Positions 6,000 through 17,783 of a stretch of 64,000 bases of DNA are shown here, piece by piece; the stretch's first letter is position 1, and each line of letters opens with the position of its first letter. The notes below the pieces were generated by a model, which ran no database searches, was not told where the DNA came from, and was given only the letters and a program-made list of their open reading frames with translations. The position numbers and the translations under genes were made by a program. The stretch is from Pelagihabitans pacificus (GTDB lineage Bacteria; Bacteroidota; Bacteroidia; Flavobacteriales; Flavobacteriaceae), in NCBI RefSeq assembly GCF_009371985.2, contig NZ_VIKU02000004.1:248001-312000 (forward strand), given 5' to 3'.

Positions 6000-7109
6000 A
6001 TGGAGGTGCATCCAAAATATAGGCGGTATTTTTCAAGAATCGTGAGTTTTGGACTAATCTGGTTGGTCTTTGGATTGGCCTATAGTTTTGTGGAGTATGG
6101 TATTATGGGGCGGGAGACTATATATCCTGCTACCGGAAACAAATATAACTTCCAAAGTACGCTGCTTTATGCTGGGTTTGGAAGCTTTCTTATGGGACTC
6201 TTGCAAGGATGGATTGAGGTCATCTGGCTCAGAAAACGTTTTGAGAATAAACCTTTTTGGCTTAAGATTATTGTAAAGGGTAGCTTCTATGTTACCCTGA
6301 TTATATTCTTTTTGACATTTGTTGCCATTGCTACCAACATGGAACATTTAAACAGTGGCCCCTTTGACCCTGCTGTTCTAGACAGTCTATATAGATTTAT
6401 AAGAAGATTCTCGTTTTGGAGCATAATTATTTACGTCTCCCTTATTCTCGGAGTCTCGCTGTTCTATTCGGAGGTAAGCGAATATCTGGGATTTGGCGTT
6501 TTGCGTAATTTTTTCATTGGGAAATATCATAGTCCAAAACTGGAAACCCGAATATTTATGTTTCTTGATATGAAATCATCAACTACCATAGCAGAAAAAA
6601 TAGGTCACAAGAAGTTCTTTGACCTGCTTAAAGACTATTATGCCGATATGACCAATGCCATTTTGGAAACCTCGGGTCAAATCTACCAATATGTCGGGGA
6701 TGAGATTGTCATTTCTTGGAATAAAAATGAGGGTTTATATAAAAATAACTGCCTTCAATGCTTTGTAAAGATTTTAAATGCAATCACCGAAAACAAAGAA
6801 AGCTATTTAGAAAAATTTGGTGTCATTCCAGAGTTCAAAGCAGGCTATCATATCGGAGAGGTTACAAGTGGTGAAATAGGAATTCTCAAGAAGGATATTA
6901 TCTACACAGGTGATGTTTTGAATACAACGGCACGTCTTCAGGCGCAGTGTAATAGATATAATGCCAAGGCACTTATTTCTGGGCAGTTGTTGGAAGAATT
7001 GCAAATGGATGATTCCATTTCCTATTCAAAAATTGGCGAATTAGCCCTTCGTGGAAAGTCGGAACTTATAAGCTTGTATAGTTTGGATTTTCAAGACTTA
7101 TTAAGTTAA
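6000..7109 (+). CDS. Membrane class III adenylate/guanylate cyclase
   Basis: Makes a cyclic nucleotide (cAMP or cGMP) from ATP or GTP at the inner membrane; 369 aa. Residues 1-170 contain four membrane segments, roughly 14-32, 53-71, 92-112 and 137-155, with no recognisable sensor domain. The catalytic domain begins at FMFLDMKSST, where Asp190 is the first metal ligand. Asp234 in YVGDE is the second. DVLNTTARLQ, about residue 312 onward, holds the Asn and Arg that stabilise the transition state. All key residues are present, so it should be active as a homodimer. It lies 44 bp after the sulfatase run and may be cotranscribed. A cAMP-type Crp/Fnr regulator with a CRP-like site is 1.3 kb away, which is suggestive but not proof of a circuit. 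Confidence 0.85.
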   Translation: MEVHPKYRRYFSRIVSFGLIWLVFGLAYSFVEYGIMGRETIYPATGNKYNFQSTLLYAGFGSFLMGLLQGWIEVIWLRKRFENKPFWLKIIVKGSFYVTLIIFFLTFVAIATNMEHLNSGPFDPAVLDSLYRFIRRFSFWSIIIYVSLILGVSLFYSEVSEYLGFGVLRNFFIGKYHSPKLETRIFMFLDMKSSTTIAEKIGHKKFFDLLKDYYADMTNAILETSGQIYQYVGDEIVISWNKNEGLYKNNCLQCFVKILNAITENKESYLEKFGVIPEFKAGYHIGEVTSGEIGILKKDIIYTGDVLNTTARLQAQCNRYNAKALISGQLLEELQMDDSISYSKIGELALRGKSELISLYSLDFQDLLS

Positions 7110-7257
7110 GGGATTGTGCCATAATAGGAACGTTTTTTAAGACTTTGCTATTCTTTCCAACCAGTTTTGTTAAACGGCCTATTTATAGAGCGACTTTGGC
7201 CGGGACTGGAATAACTATCATTACAAATGTAGGGTTTGGCAATTTAGCTAGCATTAA

Positions 7258-7283
7258 AACTGCCCCTTTGCCTTGGGGCAGTT
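7258..7283 (-). terminator. Intrinsic terminator of the small-protein operon
   Basis: Perfect 9-bp stem AACTGCCCC/GGGGCAGTT with an 8-nt loop. Read on the minus strand it is followed by TTTAAT, so it most likely ends the minus-strand transcript of the DUF2892 gene. It lies in the 305-bp gap between the cyclase and DUF2892 genes. The stem is nearly the same as the terminator at 8461-8490. Confidence 0.65.
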
Positions 7284-7332
7284 CATTAAATACTATCCTT
7301 TTCATAGCCAACAGTATAATCAAAGAGTCTTG

Positions 7333-7371
7333 AAAACCTTGTTAGCTGCGATCAAAAGCAGTGGTTTTTTT
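7333..7371 (+). terminator. Possible plus-strand terminator in the 7110-7414 gap
   Basis: AAAACC pairs with GGTTTT, with an inner GCTGC/GCAGT pairing, and the stem runs into seven T residues on the plus strand. It would end read-through from the cyclase gene, although it is 220 bp from its stop. The remainder of the 7110-7414 gap shows no convincing gene. Confidence 0.35.
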
Positions 7372-7414
7372 AAAGTATCCAAAACAATGCCATGGGGATT
7401 ACCATAGGGTTCGA

Positions 7415-7636
7415 TTAATTTTTATCACGTACCTCTTTTATCGAACAGGTACTGATTCCGAAAGGCGCATACAGCGGACAAAAGCTGATAAAGCTAGTTA
7501 AAAGGAATACACCCGCTAAGACTAACAACACTATGCCCAAAGTTCCCGTTATGGTTCCTGTAAAATACAACGCTGCGATTATTGCGGCGATGATGAATCG
7601 AATAATTCGATCTGAGTTACCCATGTTTTTTTTCAT
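7415..7636 (-). CDS. Small inner-membrane protein, DUF2892 (YgaP transmembrane-like)
   Basis: A 73-aa protein with a polar N-terminus (NMGNSDRIIR) and two membrane helices (residues 11-32 and 34-56), followed by CPLYAPFGISTC. The R-I-I-R start, two glycine-rich helices and C-P-L-Y-x-x-F/L-G motif are the DUF2892 signature, also found at the C-terminus of the sulfurtransferase YgaP. No rhodanese domain is attached here. Function is unknown in stand-alone form. It follows a 31-aa membrane peptide gene by 11 bp and ends at the terminator 7258-7283. A CRP-type site and a -7 element precede the pair, so it is probably under Crp/Fnr control. Confidence 0.8.
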   Translation of the reverse strand: MKKNMGNSDRIIRFIIAAIIAALYFTGTITGTLGIVLLVLAGVFLLTSFISFCPLYAPFGISTCSIKEVRDKN

Positions 7637-7647
7637 GTCGATATATT

Positions 7648-7743
7648 TTAGTTAGACAATTTTTGAAAGACAAGAACAATACCCGAAACTACTACTATGC
7701 AGATTAGGCACACCCATAAAAATTGGAATACTTTCTTGCTCAT
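7648..7743 (-). CDS. 31-residue single-helix membrane peptide
   Basis: Short open frame of 31 codons plus TAA. It starts MSKKVFQFLW, continues as one strong membrane helix (VCLICIVVVSGIVLVF), and ends QKLSN. The positive-inside start and single helix are what a real small membrane protein looks like. Support comes from context: a TACTTTTG -7 element ends 12 bp before the ATG, a perfect TGTGA-N6-TCACA site is about 42 bp before the expected transcription start, and the DUF2892 gene follows at 11 bp. Small genes like this are easily missed by gene finders. Function unknown. Confidence 0.6.
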   Translation of the reverse strand: MSKKVFQFLWVCLICIVVVSGIVLVFQKLSN

Positions 7744-7755
7744 GTTTCTTTTTAT

Positions 7756-7763
7756 CAAAAGTA
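7756..7763 (-). promoter_or_regulatory. Bacteroidota -7 promoter element (TACTTTTG)
   Basis: On the minus strand this is an exact TAnnTTTG match, 12 bp upstream of the 31-residue gene. No convincing TTTG -33 element is at the usual spacing, which fits a promoter that depends on an activator bound at the neighbouring palindrome. Confidence 0.55.
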
Positions 7764-7783
7764 CTCAGGTAATTTTAGCTGTG

Positions 7784-7801
7784 CTGTGACTGTAGTCACA
7801 G
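7784..7801. promoter_or_regulatory. CRP-type operator TGTGA-N6-TCACA
   Basis: An 18-bp palindrome, CTGTGACTGTAGTCACAG, with perfect 8-bp arms and a 2-bp centre. Its inner 16 bp are exactly the CRP consensus TGTGA-N6-TCACA. It lies right after the stop codon of the Crp/Fnr gene. If transcription starts about 6 bp after the -7 element, its centre falls near -42, the class II activation position. Confidence 0.7.
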
Positions 7802-8416
7802 CTACAAAATTTCAATACCGTTGACATGCTGTTTTACCAATCCTTCAATCTCCAGTTTCTTCATTACTCGACTTATGACTTCTCTTACGGTTCCCAATTC
7901 ATCGGCTAGCTGTTGATGTGATAATTTGAGCGGATTCTCTTCCCTGACCAACGTTTTGGTCTTCAGATGGTCGTACAATCTTTGGTCCATCTTGTTGAAA
8001 AGTACGTGGTGTATCGTATCGAGAAGTTCGCTGTAGCGTTGTTTATATTGTTGAAAGAAAAGTGTATTGATGTCTGGAAATTGCGCTATCCATGTCGAAA
8101 CTTTTGCGACCGGTAATAATAAGGCTGTGGTGTTTTCCTCTGTTTCGGCGAACACTTGACTCGGTTCGTTTTTTATACTGGCCGAAAAAGACATGATACA
8201 ACTTTCATCGGGACGTATGTAGTACAACAAAAGTTCCCTATCCTGATACCGAGTGTACACTTTTATCAAGCCTTTTAGTACTATGGGGATGACTTTTATA
8301 AATTGGCCTTCACGTAGTATTTGGGTGTTCTTTGGAATTTCCTTTAAAATCGATGCCTTTTGTATCCGTTCTACAAGTTCAGGGTTTAGATAGGAAAGCG
8401 ATTTTGAGATATCCAT
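7802..8416 (-). CDS. Crp/Fnr-family transcriptional regulator
   Basis: DNA-binding regulator of 204 aa from the ATG at 8416; an in-frame GTG at 8443 would add nine residues. Residues 15-120 form a cyclic-nucleotide-binding-type beta-roll (ILREGQFIKVIPIVLKGLIKVY). A long dimer helix follows, then a winged helix with HQQLADELGTVREVISRVMK. The recognition helix carries R-E-x-x-S-R, close to CRP's R-E-T-V-G-R, which reads TGTGA. No N-terminal cysteine cluster is present, so it is not an Fe-S oxygen sensor of the FNR kind. Whether it binds cAMP is uncertain, because the classic phosphate-binding RxS motif is not obvious. A matching operator lies immediately downstream. Confidence 0.88.
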   Translation of the reverse strand: MDISKSLSYLNPELVERIQKASILKEIPKNTQILREGQFIKVIPIVLKGLIKVYTRYQDRELLLYYIRPDESCIMSFSASIKNEPSQVFAETEENTTALLLPVAKVSTWIAQFPDINTLFFQQYKQRYSELLDTIHHVLFNKMDQRLYDHLKTKTLVREENPLKLSHQQLADELGTVREVISRVMKKLEIEGLVKQHVNGIEIL

Positions 8417-8460
8417 AATGGCAAGGGGTTTTTGTAAAGGCACGATAAATATAGAAATTA

Positions 8461-8490
8461 AAACTGCCCCAATGAGCCTTGGGGCAGTTT
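8461..8490 (-). terminator. Intrinsic terminator of the lipoprotein operon
   Basis: Perfect 12-bp stem AAACTGCCCCAA/TTGGGGCAGTTT with a 6-nt loop; on the minus strand the stem is followed by TAATTTC. It lies between the 296-aa lipoprotein gene and the Crp/Fnr gene and should end the lipoprotein transcript. Confidence 0.75.
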
Positions 8491-8602
8491 AACAAAAAAC
8501 CTTCCTTTTTCATAGCGGGGAAACTTCATCAAGGAATAAAGAAGATTTTTGCGGTACAACTAAAATCGGGGAACACTAGCCGGCTTTCACCCATAAGCAG
8601 GT

Positions 8603-9493
8603 CTAATCCTTTTCAAAGGTCAATAGGTCGGTGCCACCATTTCCCCCGCTCACATGCTTGAGCTCGATTTTGGAGGCAGAGTAGGATACAATATTCCAAT
8701 CCTCTGAAAGTTCGTTGAAATCCTCAGGTGCTGCAAAAAATATGTTGAAATCTATTTCCCCAGTAGAGTTTCCACTGTTAAAGTTGCCCAAGGTACAACC
8801 GTTATTGAAACGTAATCGGTCTTCTCCGTTTATTCTCATATCAACTTTGGATTCTCCATTGTATAATTCAATTTCATGCAATGTCCAAGTATCCTGAAAA
8901 TCCGCCAAATCGGCAACGGTCAGTACAACTTGAATGTTGTTGCCACTTCCGGTGGCTTCCCAACTCCCAGTATAGTTATTGGAGCCAGTACTTACCGTAA
9001 CGGTGCCATCGGCGGAAAAGTTAAAACGATAACTACTATAATTATCTTCCAAATCATTATCGTTACGCTCTAATTTATCCACAAACCAGTCGGTACATGC
9101 GGTCAAAACGTTAGTAAGTTGCTCAACCGTACAAGCATTGCAATCATCAACATTATCACCACTTGAACTGTCGTCATCGGAGTCATCACTGACATCGTCA
9201 TCTATTGTTATGGACCAGGTGCCCGTAACGGTGGTGTTGCCATTTTCTGCCACTAGGCTTCCATCTTGGTTAAAGGTAAAACCATAGCCCATAAAATCAG
9301 CCGTCTCATTTTTACCGGAATCAACAAAGTTCGTAATACTCCATGCACCGGAGGTAGCGGTAACGGTGATTTCCTCAACGTCTGCTTGTAACTTGGCAAG
9401 ATTGTCATTATCGTTGTCATCGCTATCCGATGAGCAAGCATTCAGAATCAATGCCGTTACTAAAATTCCTAGGTTTACAATGTTCTTTTTCAT
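8603..9493 (-). CDS. Modular lipoprotein with a nested domain insertion
   Basis: Surface or periplasmic lipoprotein of 296 aa. The lipobox LILNACSS has Cys20 as the lipidated residue; an Asp/Ser-rich linker follows. Residues 47-97 (WSITNF...GTWSI) and 245-296 (EDWNIV...SGGNGGTDLLTF) are the two halves of one beta-rich domain. Residues 118-233 are a separate module with a DWFVDKLERND core, bounded by cysteines. The same module and intact copies of the split domain occur in the 593-aa protein encoded 28 bp upstream, so the arrangement is a domain inserted inside another. The fold looks lipocalin-like but is not assigned. It is the second gene of an operon controlled by the motif at 11335-11368. 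Function unknown. Confidence 0.7.
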   Translation of the reverse strand: MKKNIVNLGILVTALILNACSSDSDDNDNDNLAKLQADVEEITVTATSGAWSITNFVDSGKNETADFMGYGFTFNQDGSLVAENGNTTVTGTWSITIDDDVSDDSDDDSSSGDNVDDCNACTVEQLTNVLTACTDWFVDKLERNDNDLEDNYSSYRFNFSADGTVTVSTGSNNYTGSWEATGSGNNIQVVLTVADLADFQDTWTLHEIELYNGESKVDMRINGEDRLRFNNGCTLGNFNSGNSTGEIDFNIFFAAPEDFNELSEDWNIVSYSASKIELKHVSGGNGGTDLLTFEKD

Positions 9494-9521
9494 AGTGTTC
9501 TATTTTTAATTATTATTTGGG

Positions 9522-11303
9522 TTACTGTTTTGTAAAAACCAACATGTCAATATCTCCATTACCACCACTTACGTCACTAAGTCTTATCACTGTTTCAGTT
9601 GCCAAGATGACGTCCCAGTCATCGTTAAATTCATTCAAGGGTATTGTGTTACCAAAGTCCAATGTTAGTTGGTTATCGCCATTTTGTGCTGCCCAGGTGC
9701 CATTTGTGGTACCGCCATTTGAGGCGATAACGGTACCATTGGAATTAAAATCAAAGGTAAAGCCGGCATAATCGGTGGTCTGATCAGTTCCATTATCTCG
9801 ATAAGAAGATACTGTCCAGATACCGTCAATGATAACTGTACTTAAATCGGAACTGGTATTGCCATTGTCTATTGGGTTTCTCCTAAAGGTCAAGAAATCA
9901 ATGTCATCCGTCCCTCCACTAATGTCCTTTAATCTTATAATATTGTCGTTGGCTTCAAGAACGTCCCAATCTTCCAGTAGTTGATCAAATGGAGGGTTTG
10001 TTCCAAAGTTCAGGTTCAGTTCCACATTAGTTTCGTTACCCATGTTGGTAGTCCAGCTTCCATTGGTAGTTGTACCAGTTTCACTGGCGGTGGCGGACCC
10101 ATCCAAGGCAAAGTTGAAAACCAACCCATCAAAAAGTGCAGTCTCGTCACCATCATCAAAATAATTGGTCACATACCAGTCACCTGTGGTCAAGACCTGT
10201 ACCAGAGCACTGTCGTCAACATCGTTGTTTGAAACACAGTCACTTTTAAACCTAAGGCGGTCATCTCCCATTCTTAGGTCGACCTTACTTTCATTTTGGT
10301 CCTGTTCTATTTCGTTGAGGTTCCATGTGGCATTAAAGTCCGGAAGGCTAGGTATGTTGATTGTAACCGAAATGTTGTTTCCAGAACCATTGGTTTCCCA
10401 AGTACCTGCAAATGAATTTGTGTTGAAAAGAGCAGTTAAGGTACCATCGTTTTCAAAACTGATCAGATAATCTGTGTAATTGTCTTCCAGGTCTTGGTCA
10501 TTTCGCTCCAACTTATCCACTCTCCAATCGGGACAATCCACCAATACGTCCGTGAGTTGGCTTGTGGTACAATCATCGCAATCGTCGTCGTCAAAATCAT
10601 TGTCATCATCTTCATCACAACTGTCTTTGGCATTCTCTATGATACTTTCCAGCTCGACTAAACCAAATACTTCTTTCTCGGTACGATCGTTCAATATTAC
10701 GATGATGGGGAAATCAATGCTAACAATGTCCTCTGGGTCCAGATCCAGGATAAAATTATATAGCATTTGATCGTTCTGTATGGAAATGGTGCTTGTTAGC
10801 TCACTATTAGGATTAAAGAGAGAAGCCCCAAAAGGATATTTAATATCTACACATTCTATATCATCATCTTCCTGATTCTCCGGACCGCAAGCTTGTGCAA
10901 GAGCGTCCAGCTCATTCTGGTCTGATACGGTCAACTCTGTAAAATCATTTAGTGTAACAGCAATTGGAAAAGTAATTTCCAAAGTGTCATTGTCATCGTC
11001 CATCAGTTCAAAGATATCCTCGATGGTATCAAAATCATTAGGGGTTTCCACAACGACCACCGTACCATTTACCGTAACGGTAACCGGCAAGACCAGCGTA
11101 AGACAATTTGCACCATCAATTATATTGTCATCGGACCCATCCTTTAAAGAAATCCTCTGTAGAAGGTTGGCAACGTTTGAATCTGGAGGTAAAGCCTGTT
11201 CCGGAGGGGTTCCTATAAACTCAAACTCTTCCTTCTTACAGGAGAGGTTGATGAGACTTAATACTAGTAATAAAAGACCAATAAGCTGAACACCATTTTT
11301 CAT
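9522..11303 (-). CDS. Large repeat-containing lipoprotein
   Basis: Lipoprotein of 593 aa with lipobox LINLSCKK (Cys22). Two N-terminal repeats, about 66-140 and 151-230, each contain a P-x-x-V-x-L-N-D strand pair. An acidic linker leads to module A (242-356, DWRVDKLERND). Two tandem copies of module B follow (364-475 and 486-593), each opening with W-x-V-x-x-Y-x-D-x-G and ending D-W-D-V...L-x-D-x-S-G-G...F. Modules A and B are shared with the 296-aa lipoprotein downstream. It diverges from an ECF sigma/FecR/TonB-receptor operon, so it may be a surface partner of that receptor; no SusD homolog is present. The substrate is unknown. The very acidic composition may reflect metal binding, which is only a guess. 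Confidence 0.7.
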   Translation of the reverse strand: MKNGVQLIGLLLLVLSLINLSCKKEEFEFIGTPPEQALPPDSNVANLLQRISLKDGSDDNIIDGANCLTLVLPVTVTVNGTVVVVETPNDFDTIEDIFELMDDDNDTLEITFPIAVTLNDFTELTVSDQNELDALAQACGPENQEDDDIECVDIKYPFGASLFNPNSELTSTISIQNDQMLYNFILDLDPEDIVSIDFPIIVILNDRTEKEVFGLVELESIIENAKDSCDEDDDNDFDDDDCDDCTTSQLTDVLVDCPDWRVDKLERNDQDLEDNYTDYLISFENDGTLTALFNTNSFAGTWETNGSGNNISVTINIPSLPDFNATWNLNEIEQDQNESKVDLRMGDDRLRFKSDCVSNNDVDDSALVQVLTTGDWYVTNYFDDGDETALFDGLVFNFALDGSATASETGTTTNGSWTTNMGNETNVELNLNFGTNPPFDQLLEDWDVLEANDNIIRLKDISGGTDDIDFLTFRRNPIDNGNTSSDLSTVIIDGIWTVSSYRDNGTDQTTDYAGFTFDFNSNGTVIASNGGTTNGTWAAQNGDNQLTLDFGNTIPLNEFNDDWDVILATETVIRLSDVSGGNGDIDMLVFTKQ

Positions 11304-11334
11304 TGATAAACTATTTTATCATTTTGTGACTACC

Positions 11335-11368
11335 TATAGAACAACCAAACGATAAAAACTCCTGAAAA
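11335..11368 (-). promoter_or_regulatory. Candidate ECF-sigma promoter (copy 1) before the lipoprotein operon
   Basis: Read on the minus strand: TTTTCAGGAGTTTTT, 9 bp, TTGTTCTATA, ending 31 bp before the ATG at 11303. The same two blocks with the same 9-bp spacing occur at 15733-15766 before another minus-strand gene. Both flank the ECF sigma operon, which makes it the natural candidate to read them. Confidence 0.55.
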
Positions 11369-11427
11369 TTTTTGTTTTTTTTTAAAAATCTAGTTTCCTT
11401 ACTTTTAACGAATAATTAAAAAGTTTC

Positions 11428-11952
11428 TTGAAAAAAGATTTGCATAAGGATATTTGTGAGGAAAAGGTGTTCGCTGGCATCTATAACAAATACGCCAAAA
11501 GTCTTCATGATTTTCTTTATTACAAATACGGGGAAAACTTGAACCCCGGTGACAAAGCACAAGATGCTTTTGCAAAATTATGGGAAAGCTGTAAGAAGGT
11601 AACACCTGAAAAAGCCAAATCGTTTTTATACACTGTAGCCAATAATTTGATGTTGAACGAAACAAAACATCAAAAAGTAGTTTTAAAATACAAAAGCGAG
11701 GCACCCAAAGGTTATACAAACGAAAATCCGGAGTTTATTTTTGAAAAGGAGCAATATTATAAAAGATATCAGGCAGTACTCGCCAGACTATCCGAGGAAC
11801 AGCGGACCGCATTTATGCTGAACAAGGTTGAAGGAAAAAAACATGAGGAAATAGCGCAAATTTTAGGGGTAACCAGAAAAGTCGTGGAGTACCGTATTTA
11901 TTCAGCTTTTGACCAATTGAAAAAGGAATTGGAAAATTTTAAGATAAAATAA
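11428..11952 (+). CDS. ECF RNA polymerase sigma factor (FecI/RpoE-like)
   Basis: Alternative sigma factor of 174 aa. Region 2 spans about residues 20-85, with LNPGDKAQDAFAKLWE and KAKSFLYTVANNL giving the -10-recognition helix. Region 4 is about 115-165 (LSEEQRTAFMLNKVEGKKHEEIAQILGVTRKVVEYRI), a normal helix-turn-helix for the -35. The start is TTG; no in-frame ATG before region 2 gives a better protein. The gene is followed by a FecR-type anti-sigma gene (48 bp) and a TonB receptor, the standard surface-signalling triplet of this phylum, in which receptor occupancy releases the sigma factor. Its likely targets are the two promoters with the shared bipartite motif. Confidence 0.9.
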   Translation: MKKDLHKDICEEKVFAGIYNKYAKSLHDFLYYKYGENLNPGDKAQDAFAKLWESCKKVTPEKAKSFLYTVANNLMLNETKHQKVVLKYKSEAPKGYTNENPEFIFEKEQYYKRYQAVLARLSEEQRTAFMLNKVEGKKHEEIAQILGVTRKVVEYRIYSAFDQLKKELENFKIK

Positions 11953-12000
11953 TCGGGAGAATTAATAGTTCGGTTGTTATATATACAAAGAGCCGTATTG

Positions 12001-12912
12001 ATGGATAAGGACAACTTAATACAAAAATGGCTGTCGGATGAATTGACAGTTGAAGAAAGAAAAGCATTTGAAGCCATGGAGGATGCTGCATTCTATGAAG
12101 ATATCGTAAAGAACGCGGGTATGTTCAAGGCGTCCAATTTTTCTACTGTAGCGGATTTTGAGACCTTTAAGAATAGGGCAGTTAAACCGGATACACCAGT
12201 AAGAAAACTTCATTGGTTAAAGCCAGCACTTAGGATTGCAAGCATTCTTGTAGTTTCCTTTGGGCTGTATTACTTTTTAACCTTAAATAAATCCATTGAA
12301 ATACAAACACTGGCAGCCGAAAAAACAACCATAGAATTACCCGATGCTTCAACGGTGGAACTAAATGCCCTTTCCCAAATCAGTTACAATAAAAAGGAAT
12401 GGGACAAGAAAAGGGAAATTCAACTAGAAGGTGAAGCCTTTTTTGATGTTGCGAAGGGAGCTAAGTTTGATGTGGTTACCTCCCAAGGTACGGTAAGCGT
12501 TTTAGGAACGGAGTTTAATGTAAAGCAACGGGGCACTTATTTTGAAGTTGCCTGTTTTGAGGGTACGGTACGTGTTGTTGCAGGAAAGGATGTTAAAATC
12601 CTAAAAGTAGGCGATAATTTTACCTCCATTAACGGTGAAGTTGTTTCCGGAAAAAATACTTTTGAATCACCTCAATGGACCAAAAACATCAGTTATTTCC
12701 AGCGCATTCCTGTATCAGAGGTTATTGCGGAATTGGAAAGACAGTATAATATAAAAGTAACAGTTGAAAATATTGATGCTGATTTACTTTTCACAGGAGG
12801 TTTTGCCCATGGCAATCTTGAGAACGCTCTATTAGCTATAAGTGAGCCCCTTGGGCTTAATTATGAAATACTAAAGCCAAACAAAGTACGTTTTAGTAAA
12901 CGTGAGAAATAG
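12001..12912 (+). CDS. FecR-family anti-sigma factor
   Basis: Single-pass inner-membrane regulator of 303 aa from the ATG at 12001; a TTG at 11974 is in frame but less likely. Residues 1-65 are cytoplasmic and should hold the sigma factor (IQKWLSDELTVEERKAFE). A membrane helix follows at about 70-88 (IASILVVSFGLYYFL). The periplasmic FecR domain has its hallmark LPDASTVELNALSQISY and GEAFFDVAKG, then GTEFNVK. The C-terminal DUF4974-like segment (VSEVIAELERQYNIKV) is the part that touches the receptor's STN domain. The gene overlaps the receptor by 11 bp. Confident family call. Confidence 0.92.
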   Translation: MDKDNLIQKWLSDELTVEERKAFEAMEDAAFYEDIVKNAGMFKASNFSTVADFETFKNRAVKPDTPVRKLHWLKPALRIASILVVSFGLYYFLTLNKSIEIQTLAAEKTTIELPDASTVELNALSQISYNKKEWDKKREIQLEGEAFFDVAKGAKFDVVTSQGTVSVLGTEFNVKQRGTYFEVACFEGTVRVVAGKDVKILKVGDNFTSINGEVVSGKNTFESPQWTKNISYFQRIPVSEVIAELERQYNIKVTVENIDADLLFTGGFAHGNLENALLAISEPLGLNYEILKPNKVRFSKREK

Positions 12913-15412
12913 ACTACTGGTCCTACTTTGCGTTACAATATTAGGTTGTTTATATACCGCGGCTCAAGAGGCAGAGCCATCCAAAAACCTTGATAGCGTT
13001 CTAATCCAGTTGCAGGAACGTTTTGACGTACAATTTAACTATGCATCAGTACTTGTAGATGGAATATCCATATATCCTCCAGATGCATCACTTAATTTAA
13101 AGGAATCCCTCAATTATATAAGCGAAAAAAGCAAGCTCGACTTTGTTTTTGTGTCCGACCGAATTATTTCGATAAAGTTAAAAAAGATACTGCTTTGCGG
13201 TTATCTAAAGGACAAGGACAGTGGTGAGGCTTTGCCTTACGTAACTGTCCAGAATGGCTCGAATGGAGTAATTTCCAATGAGGAAGGTTTTTTTGAACTC
13301 GAGATAAAAACTATTGAGGATATTGTTCAAATACGCCATATTGGCCATAAACCTATTCGTAGGGAAGCCAGATTTTTTAATGCAGGAGAATGTGGAACAA
13401 TATATCTGGTGCCCAATCAGGAAAAATTGGCGGAGGTTACGCTTTATGATTATTTAATACGCGGAATTGACAAACTTGATAATGCTGCCTTTCAAATAGA
13501 CTTTAATAAGTTTAGCATACTTCCAGGTCTAATAGAGGAGGATGTTCTACAATCCGTTCAGGCATTTCCAGGGATTCAAAGTGTTGATGAAACCGTTTCC
13601 AATATTAACATAAGAGGAGGTAGTAACGATCAAAATCTTATCTCTTGGGATGGAATAAAAATGTATCAGTCCGGACATTTTTTCGGATTGATATCCATGT
13701 ACAATCCAAATATTACCCAAAAGGTAGAGCTACGTAAAAATGGTACGAGTGCTTCTGATACAGACGGTGTTTCGGGTACCATAGCCATGCAGACCGAAAC
13801 CTATTTAAATCCTAAATTGAAGGGTAATATTGGAGTAAATCTTTTGGATGCCAATGGTTTTGTGGATACTCCTTTAGGCAAAAACATGTCCCTGCAAATA
13901 GCTGCGCGTAAGTCCATAAGCGGTTTTGTGGAAACACCGACCTATTCGGAGTATTTTAATCGTATTGCCCAGGATACCGAAATAGAAAGAAATAATGGCA
14001 CGGTCACTAATTCGGACTTGTCATTTGACTTTTACGATGCTTCCTTTAGATGGTTGTACCATGCCACGGACAAAGACCGTTTTAGAACCAACTTCATATA
14101 TACTACGAACAGTCTAAATTTTAATGAAAATGCAGATGTATCGGGAACCACGGAAATCCGTGAAAGTAACCTTACTCAAAGTAGTATAGCCGGTGCATTT
14201 AACTATCAAAGGGAATGGACGGAAAACTTTTCAACAGAAGCGAACTTCTACGAAACCTACTATAAGTTAAATGCCGTTAATGCGAATATTTTGGAAGATC
14301 AACGATTTTTACAAACCAACGAGGTTTCGGAAACAGGAATTAAGCTAACAGCCAAGAACAGGATAGCGCAGCAGATTCATTTGAACAGTGGGTATAATTT
14401 CATAGAGACAAAAGTGACAAATCTAGATGATGTGGACGATCCGAGATTTGTAAGGTTGGAAGGAGAAGTGTTACGGGCACACGCAGTTTTTGGAGAAATG
14501 GGTTTTTCCTCGGAAAATTCAAAGACCCAACTTAATCTGGGGGTTCGCTATACGTATTTGGAAAAATTTAAAAAGCAGCTATTGGAACCCAGATTTGTTC
14601 TCAATCACAGCTTTGGCCAAGGATTTAACGTAGAAGTGCTTGGAGAATTTAAACATCAAAATACTTCTCAGATCATCAATTTCCAAAATGATTTTTTAGG
14701 TGTGGAAAAGCGAAGATGGCAGTTGTCCAATGACGAGTCCATACCGGTTATTACAAGCAAGCAAGCATCCTTGGGTCTAAGCTATAATAAAACAGGCTGG
14801 TTGATGGATCTGGTTTCATTTTATAAAAAAATAGACGGGATCACTACACAGAGTCAAGGATTTCAGGATAGTTACGAATTTGTAAGAACAGCCGGGGCTT
14901 ATGATGCTACAGGCATTGATGTCTTACTTAGAAAACAGCTAAATAAAAGTAACGCCTGGCTTAGCTATGCTTACCTTAAGAGCAACTACTTTTTTAATGA
15001 ACTGCCGGAAACAGGTTTCCCAAGTAATTTTGATATTACCCATATAATTACCTTAGGTGCCAATTACACTTTAAATGATTTCCTTTTTGCGGCCGGATTA
15101 AATTGGCGTACTGGAAAACCTTTCACACAACCTATTGCCGACAATGAAGTAACTGATGGAAATATTAATTTTGGCAATGCCAATGAAGCGAGGCAGGATG
15201 ATTACTTGAGGGTGGACATTTCGGCAAAATATGAATTTAAATTTGGACGTAAAACAAAGGCACAGATAGGAATGGCCGTTTGGAATGTACTGAACCGAGA
15301 TAATACAATCAATACTTTTTTTAGAACAAATTCTTTGAACCAATTACAGATAATTGAACAAAGTTCTCTTGGTATAACGCCCAATGCCACTTTCAGACTT
15401 TTCTTTTTATAA
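12902..15412 (+). CDS. TonB-dependent outer-membrane receptor with STN signalling domain
   Basis: Receptor of 836 aa starting at GTG inside the FecR gene. After the signal peptide (ends LYTAAQ) comes an STN/secretin-type signalling domain, about 28-98, which talks to FecR. A carboxypeptidase-regulatory-like domain follows, about 98-180 (CGYLKDKDSGEALPYVTVQ). The plug begins near residue 210 (SVQAFPGIQSVDETVSNINIRGG) and the barrel runs to the terminal FRLFFL. No SusD lipoprotein accompanies it, so this is more like a FecA-type uptake receptor than a glycan SusC. Cargo is unknown. The gene is AT-rich compared with genes beyond 16.3 kb (one hand-counted 60-base line at 14221 is 35% GC). Confidence 0.92.
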   Translation: MRNRLLVLLCVTILGCLYTAAQEAEPSKNLDSVLIQLQERFDVQFNYASVLVDGISIYPPDASLNLKESLNYISEKSKLDFVFVSDRIISIKLKKILLCGYLKDKDSGEALPYVTVQNGSNGVISNEEGFFELEIKTIEDIVQIRHIGHKPIRREARFFNAGECGTIYLVPNQEKLAEVTLYDYLIRGIDKLDNAAFQIDFNKFSILPGLIEEDVLQSVQAFPGIQSVDETVSNINIRGGSNDQNLISWDGIKMYQSGHFFGLISMYNPNITQKVELRKNGTSASDTDGVSGTIAMQTETYLNPKLKGNIGVNLLDANGFVDTPLGKNMSLQIAARKSISGFVETPTYSEYFNRIAQDTEIERNNGTVTNSDLSFDFYDASFRWLYHATDKDRFRTNFIYTTNSLNFNENADVSGTTEIRESNLTQSSIAGAFNYQREWTENFSTEANFYETYYKLNAVNANILEDQRFLQTNEVSETGIKLTAKNRIAQQIHLNSGYNFIETKVTNLDDVDDPRFVRLEGEVLRAHAVFGEMGFSSENSKTQLNLGVRYTYLEKFKKQLLEPRFVLNHSFGQGFNVEVLGEFKHQNTSQIINFQNDFLGVEKRRWQLSNDESIPVITSKQASLGLSYNKTGWLMDLVSFYKKIDGITTQSQGFQDSYEFVRTAGAYDATGIDVLLRKQLNKSNAWLSYAYLKSNYFFNELPETGFPSNFDITHIITLGANYTLNDFLFAAGLNWRTGKPFTQPIADNEVTDGNINFGNANEARQDDYLRVDISAKYEFKFGRKTKAQIGMAVWNVLNRDNTINTFFRTNSLNQLQIIEQSSLGITPNATFRLFFL

Positions 15413-15476
15413 ACACGAATTACCGGATTTATAAAGTAAGTTTCTTTTCTATCCATAAACTAAAATGTGGTCATAA

Positions 15477-15511
15477 AAAAACTGTGCCCTGGGGAAACAG
15501 GCACAGTTTTT
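15477..15511. terminator. Bidirectional intrinsic terminator
   Basis: Perfect 12-bp stem AAAAACTGTGCC/GGCACAGTTTTT around an 11-nt loop. A T tract follows on both strands, so it can end the receptor operon (+) and the convergent 47-residue gene (-). Confidence 0.85.
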
Positions 15512-15563
15512 CATCTTATATTAAAATAAAAGTAGGTTCTTTAAAAGGGGGTTGGGTTTTAAG

Positions 15564-15707
15564 CTATATTAGTACAAATAGTACCCCGAATTGCAGAACG
15601 GTAAAGGCGATAAGTCCTTTTAAAAAAATACTCTGACATTCAAATATTCTATCTATTTCTTCTTTTTCTTCTCTTTTTAATACAAAGGTTGATACGAGCT
15701 TTTTCAT
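15564..15707 (-). CDS. 47-residue membrane-anchored small protein
   Basis: Short gene, 47 codons plus stop. The first half is charged (KREEKEEIDRIFECQ) and the second half is one membrane helix (GLIAFTVLQFGVLFVLI). Reading the frame further upstream is possible but gives a longer, less likely protein, and the conserved promoter motif at 15733-15766 lies 25 bp before this ATG. The motif matches that of the lipoprotein operon, so the gene probably belongs to the ECF sigma regulon. A terminator at 15477-15511 closes it. The short cytoplasmic/membrane layout could suit an accessory to the TonB or anti-sigma system, but no homolog is recognised. Confidence 0.55.
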   Translation of the reverse strand: MKKLVSTFVLKREEKEEIDRIFECQSIFLKGLIAFTVLQFGVLFVLI

Positions 15708-15732
15708 TATGTAATTTTTTGGTCTGTTTGTA

Positions 15733-15766
15733 TATAAAACAATCCAAAGGCAAAAACTCCTGAAAA
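15733..15766 (-). promoter_or_regulatory. Candidate ECF-sigma promoter (copy 2) before the 47-residue gene
   Basis: Minus strand: TTTTCAGGAGTTTTT, 9 bp, TTGTTTTATA, ending 25 bp before the ATG at 15707. The first block is identical, and the second identical but for one C/T change, to the site at 11335-11368. Confidence 0.55.
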
Positions 15767-15940
15767 AAAATTGATTTTTTTCGAAAAAATCTGTAATCCA
15801 AGTAAAACGGGCCATTACACTAGGTAATACAAACAAGAAAATTCTGAATAATATTGGCATTTTTCGCTGAATTGACGCATATTTTAGTATGGTTCTAATG
15901 AATCTTGTTTAAAATAGGACGATACCTTTAGTCAAATTAG

Positions 15941-16030
15941 AATACGTTTTTTGATTTTTACCGGAACGGTTAGCTTGATTAAAATTCATTGGGTATAACG
16001 CCCAATGCCGTACTGAGGATTTATTTTTAA
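15941..16030 (+). pseudogene. Decayed C-terminus of a second TonB-dependent receptor
   Basis: In one frame the 30 codons read NTFFDFYRNG*LD*NS followed by LGITPNAVLRIYF and a stop. The intact receptor ends NTFF...LGITPNATFRLFFL and stop, with the same order and nearly the same spacing. An 18-base stretch (GGTATAACGCCCAATGCC) is identical between the two. Two in-frame stops show that it is dead. Nothing recognisable remains upstream, so only the 3' end of the old gene survives. Confidence 0.65.
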
Positions 16031-16146
16031 TATTCAAGGCAAATTAGACTGTAGGGCCGGAAAAGTGGTAGGAAATAACTGTTTAAGAAGTCCGGCCAAC
16101 GAACGTTTGACAAGACTTCTACATTTTCTTTTATATGATTCATTAA

Positions 16147-16266
16147 ATGGCCGCTATATGGTTTGGGGTACTATTTATTGCCATACGAACAGGAATGCCC
16201 GCTCTACTTGCGGGACGCCCAGAATGTTTGGTGATGATATTTACCGTTGTATTACCCGTTCGGTAG
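16147..16266 (+). other. Uncertain 39-codon hydrophobic frame in the 16031-16337 gap
   Basis: The 16031-16337 stretch has no clear gene. One short frame (ATG at 16147) encodes a hydrophobic peptide beginning MAAIWFGVLFIAIRTGMP and ending VVLPVR. It could be a small membrane protein or a leftover piece of a gene from the same decaying region as the receptor remnant. An inverted pair GGCCGGA (16055-16061) and TCCGGCC (16091-16097) lies just before it. Evidence is weak. Confidence 0.2.
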
Positions 16267-16337
16267 AAGTCCCTGTGGTATTAGTTCGGTTACAGCCATA
16301 TCTCGGAAAGTGGCACGAACTGGGGCAATAAGATATT

Positions 16338-17783
16338 TTAATAATTAGGTGGATTTACAAATCCTTCGGTATGTTTGGATACCAATTTTGCGAAATGTAG
16401 TAGATCGGGTTCACTCCAATAGGGCCCAAGCACTTGAACCCCGACAGGCAATCCTTCCTTACCAAGACCCAATGGGATACTTATGGCCGGGTGACCACTT
16501 GCATTGAAACAAGCGTTGTACGGATATACATAATCAATGTATTTCATGGTTTTTCCCTCATAAGTAATGGGTGTTCCAATTTTACATCGCTTATATGCAG
16601 GACCAAAGCCGGGCGGGCATACCAAAAGATCGAATTCTTCGAAATAGGTTTCCCATTCCTTGATAAGCTGCATTCTTAGCCCTATGAGCTGTGAGTAATC
16701 CGAAAAGGTATCCTTGAATTTCCAAGGGATAGTTCCCATGCCTTTTAAATATCCGTTCTTTAATCCCTTTACCATTAAAGGTTTCACAAACCATGGAAGA
16801 TCTTGCATAATGCTCATAAATGACAACCTTTGATGCAGCTCAAGTGTTTGGCGATGAAGATCTGGTTTAGGAATCAATTGCCGGGTATCTCCTCCTTGGT
16901 CCTTGATCAACTGTATGAATCTTTCGATTAGGTGTTTGGTCTGTTCGCTGGTTTCATAACCTTTCCAACCATGGACCCAAGCCACTTTATAATCACTTAT
17001 GCTCCTTTGATCGGGTGTCTTCCAATGGATCGGAGGAATTCTTCGATCGATTTTATCGGCGCCCTTCAGAATGTGCCATGACAACTCCAGATCTTCCGGT
17101 GTTCGCGCCATAGGCCCCACCACTGCCATTTCGTTCAGAAAACCTTTGGCTTCTTTGGGTTTGGGAACCAGTCCATGGGTGGGTATCGTGGATTCTGTGG
17201 TCTTCAAGCCGTAAACACCACAAAAGTTTGGAGGTATACGAACTGAACCTCCCATATCACCGCCCAATTCAATAGGAACCATCCCTGTAGCCAAAGCGAC
17301 TGCGGAACCCCCTGAACTTCCACCGGGAGAATAGGCTTCATTGTATGGGTTAACACATGTGGGATAGATGTCCCCATCAACCTGGTAGTCCAACATTTCC
17401 TTGGAGATATTGGTTTTCCCCAATAGTATGGCACCCGCTTCCTTTAAGCGGGTAACGACCAAAGCATCTTCCGGGGCTATCCAGTCCTTCAAACGATTAC
17501 TATTCAATGTTGATTTGAAACCTTTTAACCAAAATTGTTCCTTAATGGTCATGGGCACTCCATGCAGTGGACCTCTAAATTGCCCCTTCTTCGCTTCCTC
17601 GTCACAAGTCAGTGCTTCCTTTAATGCTTCTTCTTCCAATAACAGGACGACCGCGTTTAATGAGGGATTGTGCTTTTTGATATGCGCGATGTGTTCTTGT
17701 ACGACCGCTGTGGAGGTAGCTTTTCCGTTGCGAATAAGCCCGGCGAGTACTATGGCGGATTTAAAGATAAAACGACTCGACAT
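16338..17783 (-). CDS. Amidase-signature-family hydrolase
   Basis: Amide hydrolase of 481 aa with no signal peptide, so probably cytoplasmic. The Ser-cisSer-Lys triad is visible: GVPMTIKE carries the Lys, GGSSGGSAVALA the cis-Ser, and DMGGSVRIPP the nucleophile Ser. The glycine/serine signature and overall length match the amidase-signature family. The C-terminal GHPAISIPLGLGKEGLPVGVQVLG is also typical. It is not a GatA, because it stands alone with no gatB/gatC. Substrate unknown; fatty-acid amides and aryl amides are usual for such stand-alone members. Base composition is clearly GC-richer than the TonB-receptor region just to the left. Confidence 0.88.
   Translation of the reverse strand: MSSRFIFKSAIVLAGLIRNGKATSTAVVQEHIAHIKKHNPSLNAVVLLLEEEALKEALTCDEEAKKGQFRGPLHGVPMTIKEQFWLKGFKSTLNSNRLKDWIAPEDALVVTRLKEAGAILLGKTNISKEMLDYQVDGDIYPTCVNPYNEAYSPGGSSGGSAVALATGMVPIELGGDMGGSVRIPPNFCGVYGLKTTESTIPTHGLVPKPKEAKGFLNEMAVVGPMARTPEDLELSWHILKGADKIDRRIPPIHWKTPDQRSISDYKVAWVHGWKGYETSEQTKHLIERFIQLIKDQGGDTRQLIPKPDLHRQTLELHQRLSFMSIMQDLPWFVKPLMVKGLKNGYLKGMGTIPWKFKDTFSDYSQLIGLRMQLIKEWETYFEEFDLLVCPPGFGPAYKRCKIGTPITYEGKTMKYIDYVYPYNACFNASGHPAISIPLGLGKEGLPVGVQVLGPYWSEPDLLHFAKLVSKHTEGFVNPPNY

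Follow-up and report, generated by a model that had tools for sequence, protein, structure and literature searches.

In the 64,000-nucleotide window of Pelagihabitans pacificus DNA analysed here, an operon for an ECF sigma factor, a FecR-type protein and a TonB-dependent receptor lies between two long common sequence blocks, one ahead of a divergent lipoprotein operon and the other ahead of a gene for 47 residues. This arrangement raises the question of whether the sigma factor governs only its own receptor or a wider set of genes, and by what sequence it would recognize them. From comparison with relatives, we put the probability at about 0.9 that the two blocks (P1 and P3), together with a further copy inside the operon (P2), are promoters of the linked ECF sigma factor. 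The features of the locus are collected in Table 1.

Table 1. Features of the sigma/FecR/receptor locus, in window coordinates
Feature	Position	Strand	Description
Terminator-like hairpin	8461..8490	-	End of lipoprotein operon, before the Crp-like gene; from hairpin scan
Lipoprotein 2	8603..9493	-	296 aa, second gene after P1; META/lipocalin-like
Lipoprotein 1	9522..11303	-	593 aa, first gene after P1; invariant Cys22 in the lipobox; predicted lipocalin-like beta-barrels nearer the C-terminus
P1, predicted sigma-dependent promoter of divergent lipoprotein operon	11335..11368	-	Core 11335-11365, TCAGGA-N15-TTGTTCTATA
ECF sigma factor	11428..11952	+	174 aa, TTG start; recognition-helix stretch VTRKVVEYRIYSAF, Tyr155
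P2, predicted promoter of fecR and receptor	11953..11983	+	TCGGGA-N15-TTGTTATATA, abutting the sigma stop codon
FecR-type anti-sigma/regulator	12001..12912	+	303 aa from conserved ATG; Pfam FecR E 2.7e-20, FecR_C E 1.7e-9
TonB-dependent receptor	12902..15412	+	836 aa; plug domain, plus a sub-threshold CarbopepD_reg_2-like match
Probable two-way terminator	15480..15508	.	Gap between receptor and 47-residue gene; inverted repeat AACTGTGCC...GGCACAGTT with runs of A and T on either side; read by eye, its loop of 11 being outside the limits of the hairpin scan
47-residue gene	15564..15707	-	Hydrophilic N-terminus and one hydrophobic C-terminal stretch (read by eye); conserved family
P3, predicted sigma-dependent promoter of 47-residue gene	15733..15766	-	Core 15733-15763

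Genes of the locus

The gene order between the two blocks agrees with the initial annotation, which had placed a sigma/FecR/TonB-receptor operon there. The sigma protein carries Sigma70_r2 and Sigma70_r4_2 domains above the Pfam cut-offs within its 174 aa, which identifies it as an ECF sigma factor, and its best matches among solved structures are ECF sigma factors. The FecR-domain gene adjoins the sigma gene, as in FecI/FecR/FecA-type systems; an alternative, longer TTG start for fecR at 11974 would fall within P2. At the N-terminus of the receptor, Pfam gives no STN match but a weak FecR_C-like one (E 0.072) over residues ~28-89, a putative N-terminal signalling region. The predicted structure of lipoprotein 1 (mean pLDDT 80.7, pTM 0.40) contains lipocalin-like domains, with DUF4822/lipocalin-like proteins as its best solved matches at a TM-score to the query of 0.15, and these predicted barrels say little on function. 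A GH43_C match among the nine proteins scanned corresponds to a lipocalin-like C-terminal domain, and the region holds no tandem repeats.

Beyond the lipoprotein operon lies a gene for a Crp-like regulator (7802-8443, minus strand), which may be part of the module; genes similar by eye stand at corresponding places in two of the related loci (L262, L264).

Three copies of a bipartite motif

The initial annotation had described the motif as TTTTCAGGAGTTTTT-N9-TTGTTYTATA, present in two minus-strand copies, and exact matches do occur at P1 and P3 only, with no further match in the window when three mismatches are allowed and 0 in 100 shuffles at the same tolerance (<=3 mismatches). Its claimed distances of 25-31 bases from the start codons are likewise borne out (31 bases to the ATG at 11303 and 25 bases to the ATG at 15707), and the genome scan that it had proposed locates the 31-base core only at those two places in 4,560,827 bases with up to 3 mismatches, the reversed pattern giving 1 match over the same genome.

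A third copy of the core, P2, was overlooked in that reading and was spotted by comparing 57 loci with sigma relatives; it appears on relaxing one base, and starts directly 3′ of the sigma stop codon, 17 bases ahead of the conserved fecR ATG. The core common to all three copies is TCRGGA-N15-TTGTTNTATA. Exact matches to TCNGGA-N15-TTGTTNTATA number four in the genome, three of them at this locus, while the fourth (C12:57084) lies within coding sequence and is taken as chance. The core consensus is TCAGGA, ~14 bases and GTTGTTnTATA, and the flanking T-tracts that are the source of the close likeness between P1 and P3 stand outside it, as a trait of lipoprotein-type sites only.

Conservation in relatives

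Of 109 loci entered, 101 have a sigma match at E <= 1e-20, and removal of 12 duplicates and 1 short row leaves 88 sigma proteins. A site precedes the divergent lipoprotein in 78 of 87 loci (reversed flanks 0, other strand 0, shuffles 0.25 mean) and another follows the sigma stop codon in 80 of 88 (reversed flanks 1, other strand 0, shuffles 0.0 mean), while none of 87 flanks holds a copy facing the sigma gene. Rows with no called site (8/88 after sigma, 9/87 before it) include some with a short flank or with deviant spacing or bases. Positions internal to the search pattern are conserved by construction, but the G at offset 20, which the pattern does not fix, is conserved at 91-92%. The sites thus keep constant places in dozens of relatives while their surroundings diverge, which argues for the promoter reading.

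Two further kinds of gene accompany the module in some relatives. A lipoprotein of ~237 aa with its own promoter copy occurs in L043, L047, L048, L059, L060, L200, L264 and L265, with a DUF4382 domain in L200, and is absent beside this operon in the window. Downstream of the lipoprotein operon in L036, L038, L039, L042 and L080 (~6890-7700, minus strand) lies a receiver-only response regulator of 142 aa, preceded in all five loci by a class A-like site (the classes are defined below), with the domain content checked by Pfam in L038; through it the regulon may feed a phosphorelay.

Co-occurrence with the sigma module

Across the ten genomes of the genus, exact TCAGGA matches number 7, every one at the module and confined to the five genomes (G000, G003, G005, G006 and G009) whose receptors are 51-100% identical; the remaining 5 hold only a receptor paralogue at 38-40% and 0 exact matches. 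In 299 genomes of the family there are 53 exact core matches against 3 for the reversed pattern, and by hand count 39 of the 53 are within ~5 kb of one of the sigma matches listed. One more (G120) adjoins a sigma gene, and the 13 found elsewhere comprise 8 ahead of lipoprotein-like proteins, 1 ahead of a secreted T9SS-type protein (FG-GAP repeats, T9SS tail), and 4 that appear chance-like. In G179 (L262), a lipoprotein with its site persists with no sigma or receptor match in the surrounding 19 kb; an IS21-like gene pair (named by eye) sits there in the remains of the module.

This pattern bears on the reading that P1-P3 are ECF promoters read by another sigma factor, or by several in common. 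Flavobacterial ECF regulons may indeed overlap, according to one study (PMC9723704), yet the sites co-occur with the linked module in the genus and the genome's paralogous module uses a different -35 half of its own, so that we consider such a reading very unlikely.

The -35 half and the sigma recognition helix

The -35 half of the sites falls into three classes: A (TCAGGA-like), B (GTAGG-like) and C (TYGGGACA-like). The two sites of a locus agree in class at 71 of 71 callable loci (61 A, 8 B, 2 C). This count, like the site counts above and the helix counts below, is partly circular, as the classes and search patterns were set after viewing the sequences, which the controls offset only in part. 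Winogradskyella P1 sites (TCAGTA) belong to class A solely through a widened pattern. On the sigma tree, the classes require the minimum number of changes. Position 155 of the recognition helix is Tyr in 64/64 sigma factors of class A, Lys in 18/18 of class B and His in 5/5 of class C, and positions 149, 152, 153, 159 and 161 also differ between classes. In our alignment register, 155 corresponds to E. coli SigE Ser172 and SigW Thr171, and 159 to Arg176 and Arg175, respectively; these residues are reported to contact bases -34 and -35, with Ser172/Thr171 at base -34 (PMC6713349).

The paralogous module (C1:549500-558500; G000, L247) has a matching layout of divergent lipoproteins, sigma, FecR and receptor genes, with Lys at position 155 and GTAGGG at both sites. 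In loci of this kind GTAGGG stands before the lipoprotein in 8/8 and after sigma in 6/8 within the 110 bases shown, a stretch that cuts off the -10 half in several of the latter. Six genomes of the family (G016, G063, G080, G117, G146 and G238) hold a class A module beside one of class B or C in the same cell. Because there are few class switches on the sigma tree, the covariation represents two or three independent events, not 87, and as sequence evidence it is strong in kind and weaker in number of events.

Covariation of the -35 half with the linked sigma factor's helix also counts against the motif being the operator of a separate regulator, with the genes using other promoters. The Crp-like protein would be an example of such a regulator, its gene adjoining the lipoprotein operon with similar proteins in L262 and L264, but the motif is non-palindromic, its two unlike halves keep one spacing, and its distance to the start codon varies within narrow limits; we judge that the operator reading has very little chance of being correct. 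Recognition by the linked sigma factor remains the preferred reading.

It is scarcely credible that the motif is a version of the Bacteroidota housekeeping promoter. AT-rich and near start codons as it is, it does not contain the TAnnTTTG -7 box of the phylum, as that box is given in two reports (PMC7366714, PMC9723704), and the exact core is essentially confined to the module in a genome of 4.56 Mb. A sigma-70 promoter scan, whose model does not cover this phylum, gave 28 hits against 24.8 in shuffles, which is no excess. TAnnTTTG itself was considered as the sigma gene's own promoter and rejected: it lies upstream of that gene in 19 of 87 loci, compared with 6 for the opposite strand, and this excess is too weak. 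Lastly, P1 and P3 are most improbable as functionless copies of one duplicated stretch, two long common blocks in one neighbourhood though they are, as their 9-base spacers and flanks differ, P2 matches in the core only, and sites are kept in place in other genera.

The 47-residue gene

The 47-residue family is conserved and is nearly always found beside this operon. Its 13 relatives are 47-50 residues long, each after a site at a similar distance, and the family has no Pfam match. In a profile search of 298 family genomes, strong matches (E < 1e-10) come from just 4, in each case next to the module; within the genus, the family is found in 3/10 genomes. The module of G006 is present with the small gene absent, and G009 has an extra, unlinked homologue (C21:38941-39090; L260), which is without a site and has several other lipoprotein-like genes around it. 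With a longer in-frame start at 15860 the gene would contain its own promoter; the start kept in relatives is 15707.

Substitutions over six small-gene pairs fall mainly on the third codon position (53, 51 and 113 at the three positions). In 5/6 pairs dN is well below dS (for example, 0.09 vs 1.19), with many more distant pairs being saturated; the sixth, a tandem pair in L041, has near-neutral values (0.16 vs 0.18).

Proposed regulatory circuit

The initial annotation had suggested a sigma-specific promoter, and positional conservation, co-occurrence with the sigma module and -35/helix covariation all point the same way; sigma dependence of P1-P3 is what we strongly infer. The motif would then be read as a promoter with -35 TCAGGA, a spacer of ~14 bp and -10 GTTGTTnTATA. 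The further suggestion, that control extends beyond the receptor, is also favoured, as sites precede the lipoproteins and the small gene, with the receptor itself probably reached through P2, which the annotation had not seen.

Most likely, the locus is a self-contained regulon of the FecI/FecR/receptor type with Has-like circuit logic. As no copy of the motif points at the sigma gene, basal sigma expression would come from another promoter. Binding of a ligand to the receptor would send a signal through the receptor's N-terminal region to FecR, which would then free or activate the sigma factor. Sigma-bound RNA polymerase would transcribe fecR and the receptor gene from P2, which adjoins the 3′ end of the sigma gene, the two surface lipoproteins from P1 and the 47-residue membrane protein from P3, with further lipoproteins under the same promoter in relatives. 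Because P2 would drive both fecR and the receptor, the module would raise its own receptor together with its own anti-sigma protein, and this joint rise of FecR could allow quick shut-off once the ligand is gone. The start sites, the receptor signalling and the FecR feedback are steps that we infer.

Significance

The kind of system described here is already known, while this promoter and its target set, the 47-residue protein and the rule linking helix to -35 class appear to be new: a literature search, mostly of journals outside subscription, yielded no report of these four. Promoters of single ECF sigma factors are mostly unassigned in flavobacteria; a start-site map of Flavobacterium psychrophilum, which has seven ECF sigma factors, yielded a single ECF-like motif and left their shares open (PMC9723704). 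The present comparison links one promoter to a sigma subfamily and its targets over ~80 loci. It also yields a helix/-35 rule open to testing, defines the surface lipoproteins concerned and adds a family of small proteins, and it may supply orthogonal promoter parts, of which the phylum has few. A bolder proposal, which we consider doubtful, is that the modules are a natural series of sigma-promoter pairs insulated from one another, the -35 element (TCAGGA, GTAGG or TYGGGACA) being set by the helix residue (Tyr, Lys or His, respectively) along with a few positions near it, and that a small membrane protein recruited specifically to the module tunes its receptor/FecR signalling. If the pairs were insulated in this way, flavobacterial ECF regulons could be read straight from the sigma helix.

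Comparison with known systems

In the HasI-HasS-HasR haem signalling system of Serratia marcescens, the sigma factor is reported to switch on the genes for its anti-sigma protein and receptor while leaving its own gene out (PMC9249621). The present module resembles it in the predicted P2 control of fecR and receptor, with a site after the sigma stop in 80/88 loci and facing the sigma gene in 0/87. Unlike in Has, a single site right at the sigma stop codon would control fecR and the receptor gene jointly, the regulon would extend to lipocalin-like lipoproteins and the 47-residue protein, and both phylum and promoter sequence differ. As in the E. coli FecI-FecR-FecA iron-citrate system, an ECF sigma factor, a FecR-domain protein and a TonB-dependent receptor are encoded together; the same source describes fecIR as free of autoregulation (PMC9249621), whereas fecR here is predicted, at the sequence level, to be under the sigma promoter P2.

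The Bacteroidota SusC/SusD polysaccharide loci with ECF sigma/FecR pairs likewise have sigma and FecR genes adjoining a TonB-dependent receptor. Here, in contrast, a lipocalin-like lipoprotein operon takes the place of SusD and carbohydrate enzymes, neither of which was found by Pfam in the nine proteins scanned (6000-17783). The genome holds five FecR genes, two of which belong to the two modules; two others adjoin sigma-like genes and long receptor-like genes of 1097 and 1172 aa (named by eye), and by eye no clear site of the present kind stands at the three non-module FecR genes.

Predicted ECF promoters of the same bacterial family are known as the SM6 promoters of F. psychrophilum, which are reported to carry a CGT box within the -10 region and to lie ahead of T9SS genes (PMC9723704), and the present core differs from them in being TCAGGA plus GTTGTTnTATA. 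For the PM2/SigW-1 type of Bacteroides thetaiotaomicron, TGTT at about -10 is reported in two SigW-1 promoters (PMC12596196), the same TGTT that lies within the GTTGTT of the present motif.
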